Made by a program: the position numbers and the translations under genes
Virus record (IMG/VR): IMGVR_UViG_3300040801_000816
Coordinates: 1 to 30,121 of that record
Source of the DNA: a virus
DNA length: 30,121 nucleotides
Strand: one strand, 5' to 3'
The notes under the pieces: model-generated
What the model was told of the DNA's origin: nothing
Databases searched by the model: none
The model's input: the letters and a program-made list of their open reading frames with translations, nothing else
Part shown: positions 1 through 29,524 of the stretch, in pieces
Numbering within the stretch: the first letter of the stretch is position 1
How the letters are laid out: every line of letters begins with the position of its first letter

Positions 1-710
1 TCAGTTATAATTATTTTCTTTTTACTTTTACGTTCAAAAACCCCAATAGTCTTCCAAGTTCTATCATCAACCCTTTCGATCTCACCTTTAAATCCTTCAT
101 AATATGGCTTTGGCTCTCTGAAGCCTTTACCATTAAGATGCTGAGTCTGACAATGGGTAATGTCAGATAACTTTCTTGGTAAAATGTTACATGCAAATCC
201 GACTGCGATACCTTGAGTTGGGTTAAGCAAGATGGTAGGAACTATGGGTAAGAAATACTCTGGTTCTTTTTCTGTATCGTCATAGTTTTGCTTCATGCTT
301 ATCAAATCACGATCAACATCTAAAAGATTGTAGAACTGTTCTGAAAGCTTAACAGAGACGTATCTGGCAGCACCAATACCATTACCTGGACCTGTAATAC
401 GAGAACCAAATGCACCTTTACCTTCAAACCAACACACATTGTTCGCACCAGCAAAAGGTTGAGCACATCCGGATATAGTTTGCTCCAAGGATGTATTTCC
501 ATGAGGATGTAACGCCATTGTAACGCCTGCTAACTTTGAAACCTTTATCCATTCATTTTGCTTCGATTTGGTTGCACACCATAAGGATCTTCTAAGACTA
601 GGTTTCATCCCATCTATAACTGATGGGATTGCACGATGTTCTAAAACATAAAAAGAATAATCTCTATATTGGGTGTTTATTATTTCTTTTATGGATTTGT
701 GTTGGGACAT
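1..710 (-). CDS. 52: Type II DNA topoisomerase medium subunit (T4 gp52-like), 3' end cut by window edge
   Basis: The first 236 residues of a GyrA/ParC-type subunit are visible; the frame is open through base 1, so the C-terminal half lies outside. This subunit carries the DNA-breaking tyrosine of the phage type II topoisomerase and works with the ATPase subunit (gp39, at 8191-10113) in replication. The GyrA-like signature is clear: IPSVIDGMKPSLRR at about 28-41, LHPHGNTSLEQ at 67-77, and ARYVSVKL around Tyr117, which aligns with the active-site tyrosine (Tyr116 in T4 gp52). The ATG at 710 follows a GAGG Shine-Dalgarno five bases away. It is separated from the rest of the minus-strand genes by the opposite-strand homing endonuclease at 780-1850. 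The assignment is firm; only the length is unknown. Confidence 0.93.
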   Translation of the reverse strand, partial: MSQHKSIKEIINTQYRDYSFYVLEHRAIPSVIDGMKPSLRRSLWCATKSKQNEWIKVSKLAGVTMALHPHGNTSLEQTISGCAQPFAGANNVCWFEGKGAFGSRITGPGNGIGAARYVSVKLSEQFYNLLDVDRDLISMKQNYDDTEKEPEYFLPIVPTILLNPTQGIAVGFACNILPRKLSDITHCQTQHLNGKGFREPKPYYEGFKGEIERVDDRTWKTIGVFERKSKKKIIIT

Positions 711-722
711 TATAACCTCATA

Positions 723-730
723 TATAAATA
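723..730 (+). promoter_or_regulatory. T4-type late promoter for the homing endonuclease
   Basis: The octamer TATAAATA matches the T4 late promoter -10 consensus exactly and lies about 50 bases upstream of the GTG start at 780, on the same strand. T4 late promoters need gp55, gp33 and the clamp; gp33 and gp45 are encoded in this window. A late promoter is a usual way for T4-type homing endonucleases to be expressed. Function is inferred from the match and its position. Confidence 0.6.
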
Positions 731-779
731 CCATGTAGATGAAGATACATATTATATATCAACTTGAAGGAGTTATCAA

Positions 780-1850
780 GTGAGAAAATTAGACGAAAGA
801 ACTGTCACAGAAAAATTAGAAAAATTAAATATAAAACTTTTAGAGCCGTATGTTAGAGCAAGTCGATACAAAACAAAATTATTACATGTACCATCAAATA
901 CAGAATTCAGAGAGAATATAACATCAGTTTTATCCATATCATTCAGAGAAAAACTAATTCAAAAATGCAAAGAAAAGAAAATAAATTTGTTGACTCATAT
1001 AGAAGATATAATTTATGGGTTAAAATTTAAAGTTCAGTGTCAAATAGATGGCTATCAATGGTATACTACTGTACATCAATTATTATACAGAAACAAAGGG
1101 TGTCATCAATGTGGAGGGTCTTTAAAATTAACAAATGAAAAAGTAGATCAAAAATTAAAAGAAAATAATAGAAAAATAAAAAGAATAGAAAATTATATTA
1201 ATGCAGATACAAAAATTCAATGGGAATGTTTAGTAGATGGATATAGATGGAAAGCTAAACCGACTGATGTATTAAACTATAACAATGGATGTCCAAAATG
1301 TGCAAATAAGCATCCATTAACAAATAAAGAAATTGATATGAGGCTTCAAAATACTGATTTAGTAAGAATCGATACCATTACTGAATCATCTTTGCCTATA
1401 AACTTTAAATGCAAACGACATAAACATAAAATTTATAAGTCCCCCCGAGAAATATACAATAAACCAATATGCCCATATTGTAAAAATAAAAAAGAATATG
1501 AAATAAAAACATTCTTAGAAAATAATATAGCATATTCGTTATTCGTACATCAATATATGATAAAAGAATCATATATACCAAATTATTATTTAATAGATTT
1601 TTATTTGGAATTGGAAGATGAAAAATATTTTATAGAATATAATGGACCCCACCACTATAGACCCGTTAGATATAATTCAGAACCATTGTCAAAAGCACAA
1701 ATTAATCATAAAAAGCAAAAAATTAGAGATTCTCATGTTAGGCGTTATTGCTCAGAAAATAATATAAAATTATTGGAAATTCCATATTGGTTAACAGACA
1801 ATGATATTTATTCATTAATAAAAGAAAAAATATCAATTATGGTACTATAA
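780..1850 (+). CDS. Homing endonuclease, Vsr-like (EDxHD type) with zinc-finger repeats
   Basis: A 356-residue protein. About residues 80-235 contain three repeats of a treble-clef-like zinc unit: C87...C108/C111, C150...C171/C174 and C211...C231/C234, the first two sharing a C-x3-DGY-x-W core. The C-terminal 120 residues look like the Vsr/PD-(D/E)XK fold used by EDxHD homing endonucleases such as I-Bth0305I: IDFYL with Asp273, FIEYNGPHHY with Glu286 and His291/292, then RDSH with Asp317. The start is GTG at 780, chosen because GAAGGAG lies seven bases upstream. The gene is visibly richer in A and T than its neighbours and runs against them, as expected for a recently arrived mobile gene. It overlaps the convergent gene at 1837-2049 by 14 bases. 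The nuclease family is recognised from motifs; the target site is not known. Confidence 0.8.
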   Translation: MRKLDERTVTEKLEKLNIKLLEPYVRASRYKTKLLHVPSNTEFRENITSVLSISFREKLIQKCKEKKINLLTHIEDIIYGLKFKVQCQIDGYQWYTTVHQLLYRNKGCHQCGGSLKLTNEKVDQKLKENNRKIKRIENYINADTKIQWECLVDGYRWKAKPTDVLNYNNGCPKCANKHPLTNKEIDMRLQNTDLVRIDTITESSLPINFKCKRHKHKIYKSPREIYNKPICPYCKNKKEYEIKTFLENNIAYSLFVHQYMIKESYIPNYYLIDFYLELEDEKYFIEYNGPHHYRPVRYNSEPLSKAQINHKKQKIRDSHVRRYCSENNIKLLEIPYWLTDNDIYSLIKEKISIMVL

Positions 1851-2049
1851 ATCCTCCTGGTAAAGAAGTATTACACTCTCCACCTAAACTAAAATTTGGC
1901 AGATCAAAGTCTTCGACCCTCTCAGATCTTGGGGGTGGCAGTAGACCTTTCTTTATGCAATGTTTCTTCCACATTTCATTGAGTGTTGGTTCTCTTACTT
2001 TCATAGGATGCCATCTTTCAAGAAGGTCTTGTACGATACCATTACTCAT
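1837..2049 (-). CDS. Hypothetical 70-residue protein, coupled to the QueE-like gene
   Basis: No family is recognised. The start ATG overlaps the stop of the QueE-like gene (ATGA), which suggests translational coupling and supports that it is real. The N-terminal half is amphipathic and charged; a Pro-rich stretch (GLLPPPRSERVEDFDLP) follows, and the protein ends in a Gly-rich tail GGFIVP. Its last five codons overlap the end of the convergent homing endonuclease gene, so the original C-terminus may have been altered when that element arrived. Confidence 0.55.
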   Translation of the reverse strand: MSNGIVQDLLERWHPMKVREPTLNEMWKKHCIKKGLLPPPRSERVEDFDLPNFSLGGECNTSLPGGFIVP

Positions 2050-2843
2050 AACAACTCCAGTGATGGTGAATGCCTATATCCATTTTGGATACAAACAGAT
2101 ATACATTCTAATGGATTTTCTTTAGATTCCAAGAAGATTTTGTCTTTTGATAGCTTATATCGTTCTACAAACTCATCAATTTGTTCAATATTATCATTGT
2201 AATCAAATATAACAACCCAACTTTTGTGTTCAAAATGAGTCCATTCAACACCTTTCTGTCGTGAACTACGATGATTTGTCAATTGTGCAACTAAAGGGAA
2301 ACCTTTGACTACTTCAAGATTGGGACGAATATTAATATGAGAACGTTTGATCCAATCTGATATCTCTGGTTCAACTGGCATGGTTCCATTTGTTTCAATT
2401 TCATACGTTAAAGATCGTTGATCAAACTGCTCACTACTCAAACGTATAGCTTTAGCAACCTCAAGCTGCCAGAGTAATGGCTCACCTCCACAAAAGATAA
2501 CATTATTAAATTCACGATGTTCATTAAGCTTAAAAACTTTTGTAAAAAATTGTTCAGTATCTTTGAACGTTACTCTATTAGGTTTTTCTGGTAGATTGTT
2601 ATTCTTTCTCCTCGCTGCCATTTTAAGTTCATGGCTTGTATAATAATATTCACTGAATTTTTCTGCTGATAAAAGGTTGTTCCCAAAGTATCTGATATTC
2701 AAAGATACTTTTCCAACATTTGGACCACCAGTTTGAATCGTTATACGAGGCATCTCAGCCAAATAAATAGATTTGTCCCCAACTTCTGATTGAGGACCAA
2801 ATTGTCGTTTCATTAATTCGTCACTAAGCAAGTGTTCTAACAT
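2046..2843 (-). CDS. QueE-like protein lacking the radical-SAM cysteines
   Basis: This 265-residue protein resembles 7-carboxy-7-deazaguanine synthase (QueE), which converts carboxytetrahydropterin to CDG in the queuosine/preQ0 pathway. The family signs are FCGGEPLL at 117-124 (SAM-binding GGE) and YEIETNGT at 147-154. Where QueE has G-C-N-L-x-C-x-x-C, this protein reads GNNLLSAEK at 54-62, so all three [4Fe-4S] ligands are replaced (Asn55, Ser59, Lys62). The DNA there is in frame and uninterrupted, so a simple frameshift does not explain it. As it stands it cannot be a normal radical-SAM enzyme: it may be a substrate-binding or regulatory relic, or have another activity. It overlaps primase by seven bases upstream and the 70-residue gene by four downstream. 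Confidence 0.7.
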   Translation of the reverse strand: MLEHLLSDELMKRQFGPQSEVGDKSIYLAEMPRITIQTGGPNVGKVSLNIRYFGNNLLSAEKFSEYYYTSHELKMAARRKNNNLPEKPNRVTFKDTEQFFTKVFKLNEHREFNNVIFCGGEPLLWQLEVAKAIRLSSEQFDQRSLTYEIETNGTMPVEPEISDWIKRSHINIRPNLEVVKGFPLVAQLTNHRSSRQKGVEWTHFEHKSWVVIFDYNDNIEQIDEFVERYKLSKDKIFLESKENPLECISVCIQNGYRHSPSLELL

Positions 2844-3931
2844 CCTGACCCCATTTTTGATACTTTCAATTTTGTTAATCCAATCTTTCCACTAAGAAGA
2901 TTTTCATTTATTATCTCCAATGGAATTGTTTTTACACCAAGAAGTAATGCTAAATCATTGATATCTTTAGGATATTCACCATTCTCAAATCTGTATTTCT
3001 TTGGCATGATAAAGCAAGTTTCACCTTCTTCAAGAAGTCTGCAAGCCCTTTCATACCCAGTTTTATCAACCCATGGAGAATCAAGAACCCACACTCTATC
3101 TTCGTATGTCTCTTTTATGAAATCTGCTTTCTCTCCAGAGACATTTGCGTTGCAAAGAGCAATAGCATTTTCAATAAAAAGACAATCTAATATACCTTCA
3201 CACACATAGACAGTTCTATTTGGGCTAACTTGATGGACACGATATATTTTTTCGTCTGGCAACTCAAAGTTTTCAAACGTGGCAAAGAGATATTTAGTAT
3301 CTAATCTTTGTTGATCTGGTTCTGGGTGTATGTCACGAGATTGAAAATTATAATACTTCCCATCTTTGGTTTTGAATGGGATAATTACACGCCAAATATA
3401 CGCTTTCAGCTTTCCAGAACCACGATAGCAGAAAAGAAATTCATTGATGAAGTGGTCTGGAATATTACGCTTCTTCATTTTGTTATAAGCATAACGTCTA
3501 AACTTTTCTTTCTTTGGATCTTCTTGAACTTCTCCCAATGGAAAACAATTTTCTTTAAAATACTCCTCTAAATACTCATGGATTTCATCTGAAGGCTCAC
3601 GTTTCTTTCTTTCGCTCGTAGATTTTTTAAATATCGAACCAGATTTTATCTGATCAAAACATAACATTTTTAAATTTTGAGCTTCTTCTGGAAAGAACTC
3701 TTCCAACATCTTTTCAAAATTTGTATTGTATCCACAATTATGACAATGGACTGCCCAATGGCTTGTATTTTCTAAACAATACAGTCTAGCTTTAGATTTC
3801 TTTCTCTGGCTATCACCACACTTAGGACAACGCCCACGCAAGACCATTCGACCTGGATTCTTGGTGGGCGTTGTCGCATTGAGAATAACCGATTTAAATA
3901 TACCTTCGACTAAATGTGCTGGATATTTCAT
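2837..3931 (-). CDS. 61: DNA primase (T4 gp61-like)
   Basis: This 364-residue primase would make RNA primers for lagging-strand synthesis together with helicase gp41. It has the N-terminal zinc-binding domain (CPKCGD with Cys35/Cys38, and HCHNCGY with Cys63/Cys66) and a TOPRIM core (VYVCEGILDCLF at about 241-252, catalytic Glu245). T4 gp61 is of similar size with the same order. A TGTTATAAT extended -10 element ends nine bases before the ATG, so a transcript from it would have almost no leader. In T4, DNA polymerase follows regA; here primase does, which is a rearrangement. Identification is secure. Confidence 0.93.
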   Translation of the reverse strand: MKYPAHLVEGIFKSVILNATTPTKNPGRMVLRGRCPKCGDSQRKKSKARLYCLENTSHWAVHCHNCGYNTNFEKMLEEFFPEEAQNLKMLCFDQIKSGSIFKKSTSERKKREPSDEIHEYLEEYFKENCFPLGEVQEDPKKEKFRRYAYNKMKKRNIPDHFINEFLFCYRGSGKLKAYIWRVIIPFKTKDGKYYNFQSRDIHPEPDQQRLDTKYLFATFENFELPDEKIYRVHQVSPNRTVYVCEGILDCLFIENAIALCNANVSGEKADFIKETYEDRVWVLDSPWVDKTGYERACRLLEEGETCFIMPKKYRFENGEYPKDINDLALLLGVKTIPLEIINENLLSGKIGLTKLKVSKMGSGC

Positions 3932-10164: not shown

Positions 10165-10974
10165 TCAACCAATTTCTTTTAACGCTTGATCTCTAGCGTC
10201 TATCAAATCTTGGAATTCGTTATCAGACCCACCATGATCTGGGTGGACTTTCATAACTTTCTTTCTAAATGCCTTAACCAATTCAGCTTTAGTAACAGTA
10301 GCAGAATCATCAAATCCAAGAATAGACTTCCAGCTTTTCTTTTTGTCGGGCTCGACAGTCTTTTGACTTTGTTGATAATATCTTTGTTGTTGTTCATATC
10401 TAACATATTCTGCTTGTTTTCTAGCGTATTCAGCACGAGCTTTAGCCTCTTGTTCACGCTTTAACTTATCATCAGCCATTCTCATGGCTTGCTGAAAAAT
10501 ACTCTCGCTACCTACATGCCCAGTTGGATCTTTAGATACAATGTTGGGGAGATCTGGTGGTCTTGGAGGTATATTCCATGGAGATGAACTTCTTGTTGGA
10601 ACAGAATTATATGATCCACCCCAAGACATATCAATAGCGTCTTGATTATTAATTCTATTTAAATCAGGATCATATGAGAGACCTCTCCCAAACCTTCCTC
10701 TTGTTTGTATCGTTACGCCAAGGGCATCTCTCTGTTCTTGGTGAGCTTTTTTAAAAGTTTTTAATATTTCTAATTTTTCTAGCTCATTCTTTTGAGCCAT
10801 TTCTCTGACGATCTGATGTGCTATGGCATATCGGGCCTGATCACCACTATCTGGATTCAAAAATTGTCGTCTTACTTCCCAAGAAGCAGTTTCCCACCAT
10901 TCTTCAATCTCAAATAATGTGATTGGAACACCATCAACTTCATATATTTTCTCAAATCTGTCTGGAGTGTCCAT
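10165..10974 (-). CDS. Protein with a C-terminal J domain
   Basis: A 269-residue protein whose last 60 or so residues form a DnaJ J domain: SWKSILGFDDSATVTKAEL, then RKKVMKVHPDHGGSD with the HPD triad that stimulates DnaK, then the terminal helix. The middle (about 165-200) is a Lys/Glu/Gln/Tyr-rich probable coiled coil, and the N-terminal 70 residues (FEIEEWWETASWEVRRQFL) form a separate helical region. Unlike DnaJ, the J domain is at the C-terminus and there are no zinc-finger repeats, so it probably recruits host DnaK to a phage target. It overlaps the RmlC-RmlD fusion by 23 bases. The target is not known. Confidence 0.8.
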   Translation of the reverse strand: MDTPDRFEKIYEVDGVPITLFEIEEWWETASWEVRRQFLNPDSGDQARYAIAHQIVREMAQKNELEKLEILKTFKKAHQEQRDALGVTIQTRGRFGRGLSYDPDLNRINNQDAIDMSWGGSYNSVPTRSSSPWNIPPRPPDLPNIVSKDPTGHVGSESIFQQAMRMADDKLKREQEAKARAEYARKQAEYVRYEQQQRYYQQSQKTVEPDKKKSWKSILGFDDSATVTKAELVKAFRKKVMKVHPDHGGSDNEFQDLIDARDQALKEIG

Positions 10975-12355
10975 TTTTAATCGTTTGAACCTTCTGTCGA
11001 ATCATTTCATCACAATCTAATCTATAAAAACAGCTTCTATTGAAAAATGCTTTTGGATTATTAATCGCTCTTGGATTTTCGACATAATTAAAATCTACTT
11101 CTTCTTCAAAAAACATTTCAAAAAGATATTCAACTGTGTATGGGGTTCCAGAAAGATTAATAAATTGTTCATATGAATCTAGATGAAATAGGTATTTATC
11201 AGTTAAAAACTCTGAAATTGCAGAAACATCAGTTGGCATAATTATCAAGTTTTCTGGTATACAAACAGGACCAGATTCTTTTGCATTCCAAAGTTTATAT
11301 AACGCATTATGAACATCATCTTCATCTTGTGAAAATAGATTAGCCAAACGAATTATATGTACATATTTTTGCATTGATAATATATTAGTTCCAATTAAAT
11401 TAGACTCGTTATAAAACGTCTCCAGCCAATCTTCATATTTCTTTTTAGACTCTGTATAAGGACTTAGTTGTCCCGTTTGAAAAACATAATCAGTCGAAAA
11501 GTTAATAAAATGAAATTTATGTCGAACTGCGAATTCTGTTAAATATTTTGGCAATTGGAAATTTGAAAAAGTAAAGCTATCAGAATCTTCTTGCACATTG
11601 GTTTTTGCAATACAGTTAATTATAACATCTGAAGAAGTTCTATTTTCTTCGTCTAATACATTATCCAAAAATCTATTTAACTTTCCCATTCCTTCAGATG
11701 TATTATCGAATTTTTCATATACTGGAATTACATTATATTTATGAATGCCCATTTCATCCAATAACTTTTTGGTTAAAGCTTTTCCGAGTCTTCCTCCAGC
11801 ACCTAGAATATAGAAATTTTGATTCTCTTCTACTTTTGGTTCATGGCGAATCTCATCAATATCATCTTCTTTAGCCACGCCCATAAACAGAGAACTTGGA
11901 AAATTCGCAGTCACTGCAATATCATCGATAGATAAATTTCTATATGAATGGATTATTCCGGGTTCCACTTTGATTCGATACATTTTATCTGGGTCTGTTA
12001 CAAAGTGAGCAACATTACCTTCTTCATCGACCAACATATAGATCATCTTGGATTTTATAGTAATAAACCAGTCAGTTTGATCTTCATGTTCGTGAGGTCC
12101 ACGCATAACCAATGGCTCAGTGTGGGAGAAGTAGCACATTTGAGGTTCATTTTCTTTGACTTTTGGATTACGACTTTGATGCCAGCCAGATTTATTTGGA
12201 ACTTCTTGGACATAAGATGAATTCATCTGTTCATCATCAGTTCTCCACAACTCACAAACGAATCCTCTAGAGTCACTAAATTGCTTAAGTTCATCAATTG
12301 TGACTCTACCATCAAAATATTCTGCTATTCTTGTATGTACAACAGTATCAAGCAT
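10952..12355 (-). CDS. RmlC-RmlD fusion: cupin epimerase plus dTDP-sugar reductase domain
   Basis: About 467 residues. The N-terminal half (to about 170) is a cupin resembling dTDP-4-keto-6-deoxyglucose 3,5-epimerase (RmlC), with RGPHEHEDQTDWF around the expected catalytic histidine and GIIHSYRNLS later. The C-terminal half is an NAD(P)-binding reductase like RmlD: FYILGAGGRLGKALTKKLL, NCIAKTNVQED, and STDYVF. The normal RmlD YxxxK appears as YTESKKKYEDWLE. Together with RmlB at 12631-13632 this suggests synthesis of a dTDP-6-deoxy sugar such as rhamnose; an RmlA is not in the window. The start at 12355 has AAGGAG five bases upstream; the adjacent ATG at 12358 is nearly equivalent. Exact substrate is uncertain. 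Confidence 0.75.
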   Translation of the reverse strand: MLDTVVHTRIAEYFDGRVTIDELKQFSDSRGFVCELWRTDDEQMNSSYVQEVPNKSGWHQSRNPKVKENEPQMCYFSHTEPLVMRGPHEHEDQTDWFITIKSKMIYMLVDEEGNVAHFVTDPDKMYRIKVEPGIIHSYRNLSIDDIAVTANFPSSLFMGVAKEDDIDEIRHEPKVEENQNFYILGAGGRLGKALTKKLLDEMGIHKYNVIPVYEKFDNTSEGMGKLNRFLDNVLDEENRTSSDVIINCIAKTNVQEDSDSFTFSNFQLPKYLTEFAVRHKFHFINFSTDYVFQTGQLSPYTESKKKYEDWLETFYNESNLIGTNILSMQKYVHIIRLANLFSQDEDDVHNALYKLWNAKESGPVCIPENLIIMPTDVSAISEFLTDKYLFHLDSYEQFINLSGTPYTVEYLFEMFFEEEVDFNYVENPRAINNPKAFFNRSCFYRLDCDEMIRQKVQTIKNGHSRQI

Positions 12356-12647
12356 CATTTCTCCTTCTGCTACCATGATATTCAGCTTCCCAGTTTGTAT
12401 ATTCTTCTAATCCATCTGGGGTCCAAACCATAAAATAAAGATAATGGTTAGCATGAGCCGATAATCGGTAAGTATTATCATATTTTCTTAAGTGCCATCT
12501 AAAATCTTTCATCTTCTTGCTTATTGTATCAGCGATTTGATTTAACTCTTCTTCTGTCTCTGGGAGGTCGTCTTTTAACAAAGGAACTACATGATTATCA
12601 AAGAAATCATATACACGTTTTCTATTCTGCTCAACTAAATTTGCCAT
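12348..12647 (-). CDS. Hypothetical 99-residue protein in the sugar cluster
   Basis: No family is recognised. The start at 12647 (MANLVEQNRK) was chosen because AAGGA lies seven bases upstream; a frame starting at 12665 lacks a ribosome site. The protein is mostly helical with a Trp/Tyr-rich second half (FRWHLRKYDNTYRLSAHANH, YLYFMVWTPDGLEEY). It overlaps rmlB upstream by 17 bases and the fusion gene downstream by eight, so it belongs to the same transcript. Confidence 0.65.
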   Translation of the reverse strand: MANLVEQNRKRVYDFFDNHVVPLLKDDLPETEEELNQIADTISKKMKDFRWHLRKYDNTYRLSAHANHYLYFMVWTPDGLEEYTNWEAEYHGSRRRNDA

Positions 12648-13632
12648 CTTTGAATCCTTCCACATAAAAATCTACAGTTCTATCCAAAGACTCATTAAAG
12701 CTTTCAGTATATGATGATGCCACAGTCATTGGAACTTTCAAAGCATAAGCTCTATCATGCCCTGGTCGATCTTTAATGTATTCAATTTCAGCATTAACAT
12801 CATGACGCTTTAAACTTTCTGCTATTTTATTTGCAATAAAGTTATTGTCGAAAAGATTTTTTGGATCTGCCAAATGAGTAATATAGTCATTGGTTCCATG
12901 CTGAAGAAGATTATCAATCAGTTTTACAGTATCTTCAACATACGTCCATTGTCTGATATTTTTTCCTTCACCATAAACTTTAATAGTTTCACCATTCAAT
13001 GCTCGTAGAATAGACGCTGGAATCATTTTTTCTTTATGTTGATTTGGTCCAAATTGGTTAGCCATTCTAATGAACTTTACATTTAGTCCAAACGTATGAG
13101 CTTGTGCTGCGAGATATGCATCCTGAGCCACTTTAGATGCAGAATATGGATTACTTGGTTTATATTGATGATTGATATCAAACCAATCTTCAGGAGAAAC
13201 GTCTAATGGTAAATCACCATAAACTTCATCAGTTGAGATATGCCAATATGTATCAATTTCCACATCTTTTAAAACTTGCAAAAGAATAACAGGAATTAAT
13301 GAGTTCTCAGCAAATATTTCTGCTGGAGCATCAATGGAATTATCAACATGAGATTCAGATGCAAAATCTAAGACATCAACAATAGTACCTTTAGGCAACC
13401 ACTTTTCAACAGCATAACTATTCAGACTAACAATATTGGCACATATACCTATCATATTATCATTTTCTAAAAATATTTCTTCATAGTTTTCTCTATTGTA
13501 GAGAGTGGCATATCCCATTTTATCAATTGAAACGACCATTTTATAATCATTGACTCTTCCAGAATCTACAAATCGTTTCAAAAAATTATAACCAATAAAT
13601 CCCCCACAACCAGTTAACACTAAACTCTTCAT
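12631..13632 (-). CDS. rmlB: dTDP-glucose 4,6-dehydratase (RmlB-like)
   Basis: A 333-residue extended short-chain dehydrogenase that would turn dTDP-glucose into dTDP-4-keto-6-deoxyglucose. It has the NAD-binding glycine motif TGCGGFIGYNF at 7-17, ASESHVDNSI at about 92-101, the active-site STDEVYGDL, and the catalytic YSASK. E. coli RmlB is 361 residues with the same motifs. The ribosome site is GGAG. A promoter sits inside the terminator hairpin just upstream. Products may feed the RmlC-RmlD fusion and, by inference, the glycosyltransferase at 23464-24228. Confidence 0.9.
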   Translation of the reverse strand: MKSLVLTGCGGFIGYNFLKRFVDSGRVNDYKMVVSIDKMGYATLYNRENYEEIFLENDNMIGICANIVSLNSYAVEKWLPKGTIVDVLDFASESHVDNSIDAPAEIFAENSLIPVILLQVLKDVEIDTYWHISTDEVYGDLPLDVSPEDWFDINHQYKPSNPYSASKVAQDAYLAAQAHTFGLNVKFIRMANQFGPNQHKEKMIPASILRALNGETIKVYGEGKNIRQWTYVEDTVKLIDNLLQHGTNDYITHLADPKNLFDNNFIANKIAESLKRHDVNAEIEYIKDRPGHDRAYALKVPMTVASSYTESFNESLDRTVDFYVEGFKDGKFS

Positions 13633-24240: not shown

Positions 24241-25083
24241 TCAGAAGACTACATTAGTATTTAAAACATCAGAGTAGTAATTTCCAAAATCTTTTTTAAT
24301 GTTGTTCTTTCTATTAAGTATCATTTTAACAAATTCTTGCTTAGTTGGCAATGATTTCTTTGGTTTTAATTCTTCATAATGATCTATAAAGTTTTTGTAA
24401 ATATTTAAAAACTTATCGTCTGGCATAGACTCTATTTTATCTAATAAAGGACTAATCACATTTGGATCAAGAGTGATCTCCCCATCCATATGTGCATCTG
24501 CAATATCCGAATAAACAGTCTTAACATTTTCATATGGTTGATAATCTGGATCTAATTCATCATCCCCAAAAAATTGAAACCCAAGATTCCTGTCAATAGC
24601 CAGTGTTTTATTTTCCTTGTCATCTTCATGATCGACGCTAATAAACTGATCAGAGTGAATGTCATAATTGCTTATTAACCAGTCAATGACTTGCTCTTTC
24701 TGATACTGTTCAACCATTTCTGAAGTCATCTCTTTTGACGTAGACGACGCAGTATCAATAAATGGTTTAAAAGACCCTAACTTTTCTTCACCATTGATTT
24801 CTAACGTGGTGGCTATAGTTGGCACATAATCACCATCAGGCATAAGAGTTCTTTGTAGACGACTTGCTAATTCTTCTACGTAAGGTGACCAGTCATCTGC
24901 TGGTTTGAACAAATATTTTTTATTATTTAATTTTGATACGAAGAAATGTTTTGGGAATGCACCACCAAGATCTTTTTTGGCACTCCCTTCGTATTCAAGA
25001 TCTGATGATAAAACATCATTTAATTCTGTGTCATCCCACCAATCTTCATTGAAAACATCAATTATTCTTCTTTTCAATTTCAT
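24241..25083 (-). CDS. Atypical kinase-like protein (HipA/PI3K-like fold)
   Basis: A 280-residue protein with the order of motifs seen in atypical kinases of the HipA/PI3-kinase type: KKYLFKP with a candidate ATP-binding Lys near residue 60, EELASRLQRTL with a pairing Glu, a catalytic-loop-like NYDIHSDQF, and a metal-binding-like AIDRNLGFQFFG. Related domains occur in phage minor head proteins. The substrate could be a protein or a small molecule. It starts 26 bases inside the end of queC, so it is translated with the modification operon. Kinase activity is inferred from motifs only. Confidence 0.6.
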   Translation of the reverse strand: MKLKRRIIDVFNEDWWDDTELNDVLSSDLEYEGSAKKDLGGAFPKHFFVSKLNNKKYLFKPADDWSPYVEELASRLQRTLMPDGDYVPTIATTLEINGEEKLGSFKPFIDTASSTSKEMTSEMVEQYQKEQVIDWLISNYDIHSDQFISVDHEDDKENKTLAIDRNLGFQFFGDDELDPDYQPYENVKTVYSDIADAHMDGEITLDPNVISPLLDKIESMPDDKFLNIYKNFIDHYEELKPKKSLPTKQEFVKMILNRKNNIKKDFGNYYSDVLNTNVVF

Positions 25084-25885
25084 AACTTACTTCCAACTTA
25101 CCACTAATTATCATATCGTAAAGCTTAAAATGCTCAGCAATTCGCTTTGATGTAAATCTAGTAGTGTCATTGGTTTCAGCAGCTTTAGGTATCTCTCTAC
25201 GCATCTCTTCTGCATAATCAGTAGACAATGGATTGGTTTCGTAACCTTCTTCCACTATACCATTTAACAAGAAGGCAGTATAACGTTTGTAGCAAGTTAA
25301 ACATTCTCCACACTTTTCTTTCTCTCCATGATAACATGAGCTAGTTTGGAACAATAAATCTAAAGGCATACCATTGTCTAATGCCCAAGTGATAGTTTCA
25401 GCTTTGGTCATTTTGGCAAATGGAGATTCAATAATGGTTTTATCTTGGAAAAAAGAATTTGTGAATGTTAGTAGTTCACTAGTATCATCAAAGAAGCGAA
25501 CACTCTTATCGTGTTCTTTTCCATTTTGTTCTCCATCCAATGCATTGATCCACACTCTGGGTGCAAACATAGAACCAATAGTCGCCAACATAACGTTGCG
25601 ACTTGGTATAATTTGGTTTGATAATCGTGATTGAATTAACGGAATCAGACCATTTATACGAAGTTCTCTAACATTGGGGACAAACCTTAACCAGTCTTCA
25701 TTATTGGTATATGCTTGAGAGACGATATTATGCATAGCATTAAGTTCTTTGTGTGCATATTCATGATCCATATCTACAAATAAACATAATGGCTTTATGC
25801 CAAGTTGATGTTTTGCGTAGCTATAAGCAATCAGACTATCAAGCCCACCGCTATACATAATTGTTACATCATATTTATTTTCCAT
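25058..25885 (-). CDS. queC: 7-cyano-7-deazaguanine (preQ0) synthase QueC
   Basis: QueC uses ATP and ammonia to turn 7-carboxy-7-deazaguanine into preQ0. The 275-residue protein has the PP-loop SGGLDS at 12-17, the family PSRN motif in IIPSRNVML at about 92-100, and the zinc site Cys184, Cys192, Cys195, Cys198 (CGECLTC). The start at 25885 (MENKYDVTIMYSGG) is chosen because GGGAG lies eight bases upstream; a longer frame to 25900 would place that site inside the gene. It is slightly longer than E. coli QueC (231). Together with folE and the DpdA-like gene it points to a deazaguanine base in the phage DNA. Confidence 0.93.
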   Translation of the reverse strand: MENKYDVTIMYSGGLDSLIAYSYAKHQLGIKPLCLFVDMDHEYAHKELNAMHNIVSQAYTNNEDWLRFVPNVRELRINGLIPLIQSRLSNQIIPSRNVMLATIGSMFAPRVWINALDGEQNGKEHDKSVRFFDDTSELLTFTNSFFQDKTIIESPFAKMTKAETITWALDNGMPLDLLFQTSSCYHGEKEKCGECLTCYKRYTAFLLNGIVEEGYETNPLSTDYAEEMRREIPKAAETNDTTRFTSKRIAEHFKLYDMIISGKLEVSYEIEKKNN

Positions 25886-26363
25886 ATTGATCACTCCCAT
25901 CTCTGTTTAGCCCACGATCCCCTTCGATCATTTTCTCGTCTTCTTCATATGGCATCACAATCCAATGTTGTGTTTTAATACCATATGTTATAAGTTTCTC
26001 TTTAAAAGTATCAGTTTCTTGATACTTTCCATCAATAAGAACTGGTGCGAATTTCCAATCAAATTGATATTGAATCCCAAATCCAGAATACTCATTATAA
26101 ATCAATTCAAAAGTTCTTCCTTCTGCGACGAGATCCTCTACAAAAACAACACGAGATAAATATTCATTCGTATTCATCAATATCTTGGAAGTTTTAGGAG
26201 AATACATTCCAATTGGAATGTTAAGATGTTTAGCAATAATATGTGAAGCTGAAAGACCTCCACGAGAAACTGCAATAATCTCATGAGGATCATATTCTTT
26301 CATATTATCTGCCATAGATAAACAGATATTTTTGAATGTTTTATAATCCAACATCGTTTTCAT
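25875..26363 (-). CDS. Phosphoribosyltransferase, purine type
   Basis: A 162-residue type I PRTase. The PRPP-binding signature is VVFVEDLVAEGRTFE, and EIIAVSRGGLSASHIIAKHL resembles the beta-strand and loop of xanthine/guanine-type enzymes. It would attach PRPP ribose phosphate to a free base. Because a DpdA-type exchange releases guanine from DNA, recapture of that guanine is an attractive role; salvage of a deazaguanine base is an alternative. It overlaps the HAD gene by four bases and queC by 11. The base used is not shown by the sequence. Confidence 0.8.
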   Translation of the reverse strand: MKTMLDYKTFKNICLSMADNMKEYDPHEIIAVSRGGLSASHIIAKHLNIPIGMYSPKTSKILMNTNEYLSRVVFVEDLVAEGRTFELIYNEYSGFGIQYQFDWKFAPVLIDGKYQETDTFKEKLITYGIKTQHWIVMPYEEDEKMIEGDRGLNRDGSDQYGK

Positions 26364-26811: not shown

Positions 26812-27459
26812 TTACTCCCATGTTTGGGGTGCAACATTACATGTCTTACAAAGTGGGATTCTTTCAGATTTATACTCATGCCCATTAAGAAGATCATCGA
26901 CTGTTAATTGTAACTGCTTTTCTGCTTCAATGCAACAAGTATTAATATATCCATCCCAGAGAACTACATACGTATTCTCATCAAGATAAACACATTTTTG
27001 TCCATATTCGACATTTGTTCCACCTTTACCCCAATCATGATTCTCTTCTGGAGTTCTTCCATAGACAGTAACTTTAGGTAATACATCACTCGCTAACCAA
27101 ATGATTTCTTCATCTACAGGTTTATGGAGAGAAATAACTAATTCATCTAATCCAGTTTCTTTGAGTTGGTGGATCCTTTTCTCATTTAACATAACTGCAT
27201 TAGTTGACATTCTAGTATATGGAAGCCTAGAAGAAGCAATCGTTAAGAATTCCATAATTTTTGGATGCATTAATGGCTCTCCAAAATTATGGAAAGCAAC
27301 AGGTTTCTTTTCTGGTGCTCTCTCGCAGAGTTCCATAACTTTCATGAAAGTTTCTGGAGACATAAACCCTTTTGGTCGCTCCATAGTTGGTTGAGGACAA
27401 TATGAACATTTCAGATTACAATGTCCCACTAACTCTACTTGAAATGGGTGCTGATTCAT
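26812..27459 (-). CDS. Radical SAM protein with short SPASM-like C-terminus
   Basis: A 215-residue radical-SAM enzyme with an intact cluster motif: GHCNLKCSYC near residues 12-21 (CxxxCxxC), and HNFGEPLMHP in place of GGEP. The C-terminal part has further cysteines in a SPASM-like order (GQKCVYL, then DGYINTCC, then PLCKTC), which may bind a second cluster. It is short for the class. Its ATG overlaps the DpdA-like stop by four bases. It may modify the deazaguanine base or a precursor; no substrate can be read from the sequence. It could also stand in for the degenerate QueE, but it does not resemble QueE outside the core. Confidence 0.85.
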   Translation of the reverse strand: MNQHPFQVELVGHCNLKCSYCPQPTMERPKGFMSPETFMKVMELCERAPEKKPVAFHNFGEPLMHPKIMEFLTIASSRLPYTRMSTNAVMLNEKRIHQLKETGLDELVISLHKPVDEEIIWLASDVLPKVTVYGRTPEENHDWGKGGTNVEYGQKCVYLDENTYVVLWDGYINTCCIEAEKQLQLTVDDLLNGHEYKSERIPLCKTCNVAPQTWE

Positions 27460-28697
27460 CCGAACATATCCTCAATAGATTCGCTTTCCTGTTCACTCTT
27501 ATGAGGATTCCCCAGCAGACCGATGTTCTTTTCGATAACATGATGTGCAGTTCCCTGTGGAGCATCAAACATCTTATCGATGACTTTGAACGTTTTAAGC
27601 TGTTCTGTCTTAAAACAAGTCTCCCAAAGCTCAGGACAACCAGTGTAAATAAGACTATGAAGCATGCTTACATATTCAACTAACATATACACATTATGAC
27701 TCTGAACGACATTATAAAAAAGCGATTCGCTACTACTCTTGAGAGCGTCTTCATTCAGAATATCCAAATGAGTATAACCATCACATACAGGACACTTACA
27801 TGGAAGAGGAGTATCATCAAATTGTCCAATTAGACGATTCGACAAGTGATAGCTCATAAATCCAGTTGAGCTTGGATAAAGAAGATATTTTCCCCAGCCA
27901 CCATTCTGAGTAGCATATGAACTATCAAAACTTACATTGATCTTATATCCACGTTGATTCATTTTATATTTCAAGTAAATCATAATTGGCATAAAGCGTG
28001 TTGATGATAAACCAAAGAAGTGAATTAGTTTGCAGCGTTCTTCATTACTGAATTCATCATTATCCATAAGAACTGAAAATGCAATCAAAACAACATACAT
28101 GTTCTTACGAAGAGATCCAAGTGCCCAACCATTATGGACATCAAGATCTTTAATGTTATTATACCAATAATCGCGTTGATCAAACGAGTGACCGTGAAGA
28201 ACATTCAACCAATCAAATTCAGATTTGAATCCACGCTTCTGTAGATATCCCACATTTTCTTTTGTTTTCTTAATAGCTTCATCCATGTCAGCATGAGTAA
28301 GATTATTTGTATCACTACGAATACTCCATGGTGGAACGTCAATGATTGGTGCTACAGTTGAGTTCCCTTCCATCCAAGTATAAAGTTTTTCAAGAGTTTC
28401 ATCATCACATTTCAGTTCTCCAGTACCAATCTGGAACCCACCAGAGTCACCGAATACAATGTCAGTATCCTTTTCTAGATCATTGATACCAATGCTCTTC
28501 ATGAAATCGACATCCTTGTAGTTGTGACCTGCAGAAGTCAAAATATATGGGTGATGAAAACACTGTTCTTCTGGAGTCATTCCATTTAAATAGAATCTTG
28601 GACTCTTCCCATTCACTTTCCAATTATTTTTCATAATGGATGTGTGTGTAGCAATCGAAATTGCTGGGAAGAAAATGGCTTTTTCGTCGTATTTCAT
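27456..28697 (-). CDS. dpdA: DpdA-like transglycosylase (TGT family) with clamp-binding-like tail
   Basis: A 413-residue tRNA-guanine transglycosylase-like protein of the kind that exchanges guanine for a 7-deazaguanine base in DNA. Signs: FGDSGGFQIGTG with Asp84 (TGT has DSGGFQ), VSFDSS with Asp258 where TGT carries its nucleophile Asp, and a complete zinc site CKCPVC (Cys300, 302, 305) plus SHNVYMLVEY (His334). The C-terminus ends SESIEDMFG, the same six residues as DNA polymerase, suggesting clamp binding. It lies in an operon with folE and queC. Family and zinc site are clear; that DNA is its target is inferred from context. Confidence 0.87.
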   Translation of the reverse strand: MKYDEKAIFFPAISIATHTSIMKNNWKVNGKSPRFYLNGMTPEEQCFHHPYILTSAGHNYKDVDFMKSIGINDLEKDTDIVFGDSGGFQIGTGELKCDDETLEKLYTWMEGNSTVAPIIDVPPWSIRSDTNNLTHADMDEAIKKTKENVGYLQKRGFKSEFDWLNVLHGHSFDQRDYWYNNIKDLDVHNGWALGSLRKNMYVVLIAFSVLMDNDEFSNEERCKLIHFFGLSSTRFMPIMIYLKYKMNQRGYKINVSFDSSYATQNGGWGKYLLYPSSTGFMSYHLSNRLIGQFDDTPLPCKCPVCDGYTHLDILNEDALKSSSESLFYNVVQSHNVYMLVEYVSMLHSLIYTGCPELWETCFKTEQLKTFKVIDKMFDAPQGTAHHVIEKNIGLLGNPHKSEQESESIEDMFG

Positions 28698-28703
28698 ATT
28701 AAA

Positions 28704-28895
28704 TTATTCACTCACTTTCTTCAAATCTGCATAGATATTAGCAGCTTCACGCATATCAACATTATTGTCGTCAATCATAACTTTTAGTCTATTGGCTATA
28801 GAATCAATTCTTTTTTTAGCAATTCTTTTTTGGATTTCTTCTGACCAATTATTATCTGGAGAATGATTCCAAGGTATACTAAATTCAAAGTCCAT
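28704..28895 (-). CDS. Hypothetical 63-residue protein
   Basis: No family is recognised. The ATG region overlaps the folE stop by one base, and the gene ends six bases before the DpdA-like start, so it is part of the operon. It is a basic, helical protein (KRIAKKRIDSIANRLKVMID) and could be a small accessory to its neighbours. Confidence 0.65.
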   Translation of the reverse strand: MDFEFSIPWNHSPDNNWSEEIQKRIAKKRIDSIANRLKVMIDDNNVDMREAANIYADLKKVSE

Positions 28896-29524
28896 CAGTT
28901 CGCCTTTATATTACATACGTCAAAGAATTCTTTACGAGTTTCTGGATTTTCTGCAAATGCCCCACGAACAGAACTAGTATACATCCATGAATTAGGTTCT
29001 TCAACACCACGAATGGTCATACAATGATGCTGAGAACGAATAACAACGATAACACCTTTTGGATTCAAAAGGTCTTGAATATAATTTGCAATTTGTTGAT
29101 TCAATTCTTCTTGAATTTGTGGTCGTCTCATGAAGAATTGTGTTATTCTAGCCAACTTTGATAGACCAACAACTTCTTTATCAGGAATATATCCAACCCA
29201 AGCATGACCAATGAAAGGACAATAATGATGAGAACACATAGATTTCACTGAAATTGGTCCAGAGATGATCATTTCATCATAATCTTTAGTGTTTGGGAAT
29301 TTTGTAATGTTTGGTGGTTCTGAATAACAACCAACTAATAGCTCATCCATGTACATTTTAGCCATACGTTTAGGAGTTTCTCTTTGATTTGGGTCATTTT
29401 CCCAATCGAACCCCAATTCACTAAGCATATTCTGGAATATTTTTTCCAATTTTTCTTTTTTCTCTTGTTTTTCTTCTTTTGATAGGATTAAATTACCATT
29501 AGATAATATTTTTTTATCGCACAT
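28895..29524 (-). CDS. folE: GTP cyclohydrolase I (FolE)
   Basis: A 209-residue FolE that turns GTP into dihydroneopterin triphosphate, the first step both of folate and of 7-deazaguanine synthesis. The active-site zinc ligands are Cys97 and His100 in SMCSHHYCPF and Cys168 in QHHCMTIRG; GHAWVGYIPDKEVVGLSKLARI (about 107-127, shown in part) and RTPKR-like RETPKRMAKMY are also typical. It is the first gene after a perfect promoter, with GGAG five bases before the ATG. Context with queC and dpdA favours DNA modification rather than folate. Confidence 0.95.
   Translation of the reverse strand: MCDKKILSNGNLILSKEEKQEKKEKLEKIFQNMLSELGFDWENDPNQRETPKRMAKMYMDELLVGCYSEPPNITKFPNTKDYDEMIISGPISVKSMCSHHYCPFIGHAWVGYIPDKEVVGLSKLARITQFFMRRPQIQEELNQQIANYIQDLLNPKGVIVVIRSQHHCMTIRGVEEPNSWMYTSSVRGAFAENPETRKEFFDVCNIKAN

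Follow-up and report, generated by a model that had tools for sequence, protein, structure and literature searches.

A QueE-related phage protein without the iron-sulfur cluster cysteines: a possible pseudoenzyme with a non-catalytic role

QueE is an iron-sulfur enzyme, the 7-carboxy-7-deazaguanine (CDG) synthase, which takes part in the making of a DNA-protecting base. Solved structures of the enzyme are available for E. coli (6NHL), B. subtilis (5TGS/5TH5) and B. multivorans (4NJG). The QueE of E. coli also moonlights as a division inhibitor, and its block of septation at the Z-ring does not depend on CDG synthesis. With regard to phages, Hutinet et al. (PMC6884629) considered that DpdA phages without synthesis genes could depend on host-made preQ0. 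No paper was found on 'pseudo-rSAM', and among the papers listed on phage QueE together with cysteine and on radical SAM pseudoenzymes, no title or abstract describes a Cys-less QueE.

The analysed material was a 30,121-nt stretch of viral DNA (IMG/VR record IMGVR_UViG_3300040801_000816, positions 1–30,121), referred to below as the window. The ORF under study, called here pseudo-QueE (2046–2843, minus strand), runs uninterrupted from ATG to TGA and encodes 265 amino acids. The protein sequence (...TIQTGGPNVGKVSLNIRYFGNNLLSAEKFSEYYY...FCGGEPLLW...EIETNGTM...) contains Cys only at residues 118, 247 and 251, none of which is a cluster position. The protein is related to QueE well beyond chance, as indicated by its profile match, a syntenic orthologue and the predicted structure. 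It matched the phrog_2076 family 'QueE-like radical SAM' with an E-value of 2e-7 and 32 bits, compared with 155 bits for its closest relative among the matches listed in the viral contig scan, the QueE of G001 (L007:4995-5831, an 89-kb contig). The top NCBIfam match was a QueE model with 28.2 bits, far under the equivalog cut-off of 240; as the G001 QueE is likewise under the NCBIfam cut-offs (best 73.8 of 260), this low score is weak evidence. Nor does the radical SAM model PF04055 discriminate, because pseudo-QueE scored 23.9 bits, under the Pfam cut-off of 29.5, and the Cys-bearing G001 QueE just 20.9. A phmmer comparison of pseudo-QueE with the PDB sequences gave no match. The structural model, predicted from an alignment of QueE homologues, had a pTM of 0.80 and resembled the solved QueEs of B. 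subtilis, E. coli and B. multivorans with Z values of 17.5, 16.9 and 16.1, respectively. The QueE barrel fold is predicted to be retained.

The original prediction, made from the sequence of the window, held that all three radical SAM cysteines are replaced in an intact frame in which the GGE and ETNGT motifs remain, and the alignment with G001 and the family bore this out in every part. The cluster loop NNLLSAEKF (residues 55–63; 2655–2681) replaces CxxxCxxC, and the three cluster positions correspond to N55, S59 and a gap. A frameshift or assembly error masking the cysteines was excluded: the other two same-strand frames are stop-rich and encode no Cys motif in the loop region, and the loss is therefore not accounted for by a simple compensated frameshift. 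Both SAM-site motifs are present, GGEP at residues 119–122 (2478–2489) and ETNGT at residues 150–154 (2382–2396).

The changes reach further than was originally noted, as much of the remaining catalytic site is altered and the C-terminus is shortened. QTGG (residues 37–40; 2724–2735) replaces QGEG, RPN (residues 173–175; 2319–2327) replaces SPK, the K of KFV is also absent, and the short and rearranged C-terminus (residues 239–265; 2049–2129) has neither MPxG nor RLHxxxW; all of these segments are encoded on the minus strand. Residue equivalents were taken from an alignment to the E. coli QueE structure and residue roles from PMC11142719. On this basis, pseudo-QueE keeps the equivalents of Q13, R27 and G94 and lacks those of E15, C31, C35, C38, T40, S136 and Q189. 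Within the substrate and Mg set (Q13, E15, R27 and T40), the E15 equivalent is G39 and the T40 position is not conserved, while approximately half of the SAM-pocket residues are missing (e.g., the equivalents of S136 and Q189). The loss of the cluster site and the changes in much of the remaining catalytic site support the earlier inference that the protein is not a working QueE, and pseudo-QueE would be expected to make no CDG. Of the three candidate roles originally suggested (binding of CDG-pathway intermediates, inhibition of host QueE and regulation of preQ0 supply), the first appears less likely, as most substrate and Mg residues (the equivalents of E15, T40 and SPK) are lost, although the Q13 and R27 equivalents persist.

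The QueE of G001 is 44% identical to pseudo-QueE over its length, a level at which saturation of synonymous sites is to be expected, and 59% identical over the first 37 residues. It retains QGEG, the three Cys, CD, TGGEP, ETNGT, SPK, MPEG and RLHVLIW, and its catalytic set is apparently complete as judged from these motifs. The spacing of its cysteines is C-x5-C-x4-C, whereas nearly all other homologues start with C-x3-C. Both phages share the gene order clamp, clamp loader, three small genes, RegA-like gene, primase and queE, and in G001 queE is directly followed by the topoisomerase A-subunit gene (we assigned the names RegA and topoisomerase A subunit from our own reading of the sequences). 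In the window, the first 7 bases of pseudo-queE are shared with the DNA primase gene (2837–3931, minus strand), and the start of orf70 (1837–2049, minus strand), which has no family match and no G001 homologue, overlaps its stop as ATGA. The topoisomerase A-subunit gene (3–734, minus strand) is cut by the contig end, and between it and orf70 lies a gene for a homing-type HNH endonuclease on the opposite strand (780–1850, plus strand), which is absent between queE and the topoisomerase gene in G001. The location next to the primase, which the original prediction pointed out, does not indicate a new role, since the active-looking queE of G001 also adjoins the primase gene. The replication cluster of the window contains sugar-nucleotide genes (10952–13632, minus strand) that are also present in G001, encoding an RmlD-like reductase, extended at its N-terminus, and a GDP-mannose-dehydratase-like epimerase. 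No known RNA family or tRNA was detected in the 30,121-nt stretch.

Relatives were collected by scans of viral contigs (with QueE alone, QueE alignments, RegA, primase, DpdA and the N-terminal segment) and by one genome-contig scan. The resulting census comprised approximately 103 further QueE homologues among the matches listed, mostly found with patterns based on GGEPL, on ETNGT and on the N-terminus and not on the cysteines. The first cluster Cys was present in all 102 rows reaching the position and the second in all 103. The third was present in 102 rows out of 103, and the exception (L035) is aberrant at other sites too; the dashes at these positions are rows ended by contig ends. Pseudo-QueE was the sole row that covers the region and has none of the three cysteines. 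The idea that the Cys loss might be conserved in related phages was not substantiated, as the scans gave no second Cys-less sequence among the matches listed, nor any close QueE but that of G001. Pseudo-QueE is so far the single case, among the matches listed, of a putative Cys-less QueE pseudoenzyme. Conservation in at least 80% of the family was found for 44 columns, of which the G001 QueE keeps 40 and pseudo-QueE 22. The 22 include every one of the 12 conserved positions in GGEPLL and E-ETNGT, for which the chance given 22 of 44 kept is ~3e-5 (hypergeometric, calculated by hand, with the grouping chosen post hoc). The contigs nearest by replication genes (L142 and L143) have neither queE nor DpdA, and no queE was found in the 21-kb contig of L162, whose DpdA is 84% identical; QueE and DpdA co-occur in the small phage set compared.

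The window also encodes other proteins of the 7-deazaguanine pathway, all on the minus strand: FolE, a GTP cyclohydrolase I (28895–29524), a DpdA-like TGT-family transglycosylase (27456–28697) and a QueC-like protein (25058–25900). The phage is best read as a T4-like, DNA-modifying phage of the DpdA type. The divergence of DpdA and FolE from their G001 counterparts (54% and 51%, respectively) resembles that of the polymerase, which agrees with a vertical inheritance of the pathway. The pathway genes of G001 encode FolE, DpdA, QueE, a QueC-like protein and a small protein labelled QueD-like from its HRH motif and gene context only, no named family being matched. The candidate (L075:12739-13092) carries the HRH motif, belongs to phrog_17812 (function unknown) and is encoded close to FolE and DpdA in G001. 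ORFs resembling it adjoin QueE and FolE in L003 and L004, and these small proteins may form a QueD-like family. Neither QueD nor a QueD-like protein of the G001 type was found in the 30-kb record, and a second, active QueE, or a QueD, may lie beyond this contig fragment.

A second radical SAM protein (26812–27459, minus strand) is encoded in the folE-dpdA operon, roughly where G001 has the small QueD-like gene. It is compact, with an intact CNLKCSYC motif and further cysteines at the C-terminus, its nearest solved relative is BtrN, and it is 74% identical to a protein in L162 (L162:3449-4096). Its role as a substitute CDG synthase would be speculation, since the family match is MoaA/BtrN-like and not QueE-like.

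The explanation that we favour, and to which we give roughly an even chance, is that the ORF encodes a QueE-derived pseudoenzyme with a non-catalytic job, possibly under weakening constraint. On the assumption of a host with a queuosine pathway, CDG or preQ0 would probably be supplied to the phage, which keeps FolE, QueC and DpdA, and its own QueE chemistry would no longer be needed. Pseudo-QueE would then have been retained for a non-catalytic role, most likely the binding of SAM or of a protein partner in 7-deazaguanine supply. The loss of QueE chemistry fits the proposal that DpdA phages could draw on preQ0 from the host.

The original claim that the protein must do something else was too strong. 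The close relative has the cysteines and pseudo-QueE shows many inactivating changes, which is half of the picture that the original prediction had named as its own refutation and which makes a relic a serious rival. The gene would be a dispensable queE decaying under little or no constraint, stop-free by chance so far; we consider this possible, but it is not the explanation that we favour. A tree that included 38 other QueEs placed pseudo-QueE and the G001 QueE as sisters, with branch lengths of 1.25 and 0.43, an approximately threefold difference. The distances of the neighbouring genes show no matching acceleration in this phage lineage, so the change is specific to queE. This fast branch and the loss of half of the conserved positions also suit a relic and count against a retained role; the short C-terminus and the homing-type endonuclease inserted nearby are also in line with decay. 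However, when neutral replacements were simulated on the coding sequence of pseudo-queE, 50, 100 and 150 of them produced about 4, 8 and 12 stops, respectively, and neither stops nor frameshifts are observed. As the excess branch corresponds to about 200 replacements, full neutrality over its whole length is difficult to square with the open frame, and wholly neutral decay is unlikely, while a recent end of constraint is possible. Moreover, the coding composition is normal (GC of 0.46, 0.32 and 0.23 by codon position, resembling the neighbours), the overlaps with both neighbours are intact, and the losses are uneven, with GGEP and ETNGT untouched. The open frame, the composition and the overlaps favour retained constraint on a non-catalytic protein. 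On selection after the catalytic loss, the open frame, the stop simulation and the composition are set against the fast branch, all of them in one Cys-less sequence.

Another reading is that pseudo-QueE acts as a functional, cluster-free regulator or scaffold of 7-deazaguanine DNA modification; it might, for example, sense SAM, or direct CDG or preQ0 towards DpdA by pairing with host QueE, QueD or QueC. In this particular form we find the proposal rather unlikely.

Co-option outside the 7-deazaguanine pathway, for instance in the replication cluster through the barrel and the N-terminal segment common to G001, seems improbable. It would agree with the position of the gene between primase and orf70 and with the higher identity of the first 37 residues than of the whole protein, but the active-looking G001 orthologue stands in an equal place, so the location is no evidence, and QueE and DpdA occur together in the phages compared.

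It is highly improbable that the protein is still a CDG synthase whose cluster is held by other residues or by a partner protein. The Q13, R27 and G94 equivalents are kept, and E. coli QueE with a single C31A or C35A replacement still yielded Q-tRNA in vivo (PMC11142719). In pseudo-QueE, however, the three Cys are lost jointly with most residues for substrate, Mg and SAM (the equivalents of E15, T40, S136 and Q189, and the KFV K), and C38A alone abolished Q-tRNA in E. coli QueE (PMC11142719). Least probable of all is a host division inhibitor like the moonlighting E. coli QueE: the two roles are separable, as R27A abolishes Q-tRNA yet still causes filamentation, but the effect requires C31, C35 and the E45–W67 region (PMC11142719), both cysteines are missing here (N55 and S59), so that division inhibition of this type is not supported, and no such effect is seen with the distantly related P. 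aeruginosa and B. subtilis proteins.

If pseudo-QueE has a function, it would represent a QueE pseudoenzyme that lacks the cluster, and the supply of a base that phages use to hide their DNA from restriction would then seem to be under non-catalytic control. As a relic, it would still indicate that a DpdA phage has lost one step of the pathway, and it would suggest reliance on host CDG or preQ0. In both cases it is a warning for annotation, as assignment from the fold or from the GGE/ETNGT motifs would credit this phage with a working QueE.

Among named families, the NCBIfam model TIGR04347 'pseudo-SAM/SPASM', weakly matched by the second radical SAM protein of the window, provides, by its name only, a precedent for a radical SAM relative classed as 'pseudo-SAM'; it is a SPASM-type family and not QueE. 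Compared with known QueE, as represented by 6NHL, 5TGS/5TH5, 4NJG and phrog_2076, pseudo-QueE is alike in its predicted fold, GGEP, ETNGT, the Q13 and R27 equivalents and the gene position shared with G001. It differs in having none of the cluster Cys, the QGEG Glu, SPK, the KFV Lys, MPxG and RLHxxxW, and CDG synthesis is not expected. The G001 QueE is alike in gene order, place, N-terminal segment and overall identity, and differs from pseudo-QueE in its retained catalytic set and slower branch.
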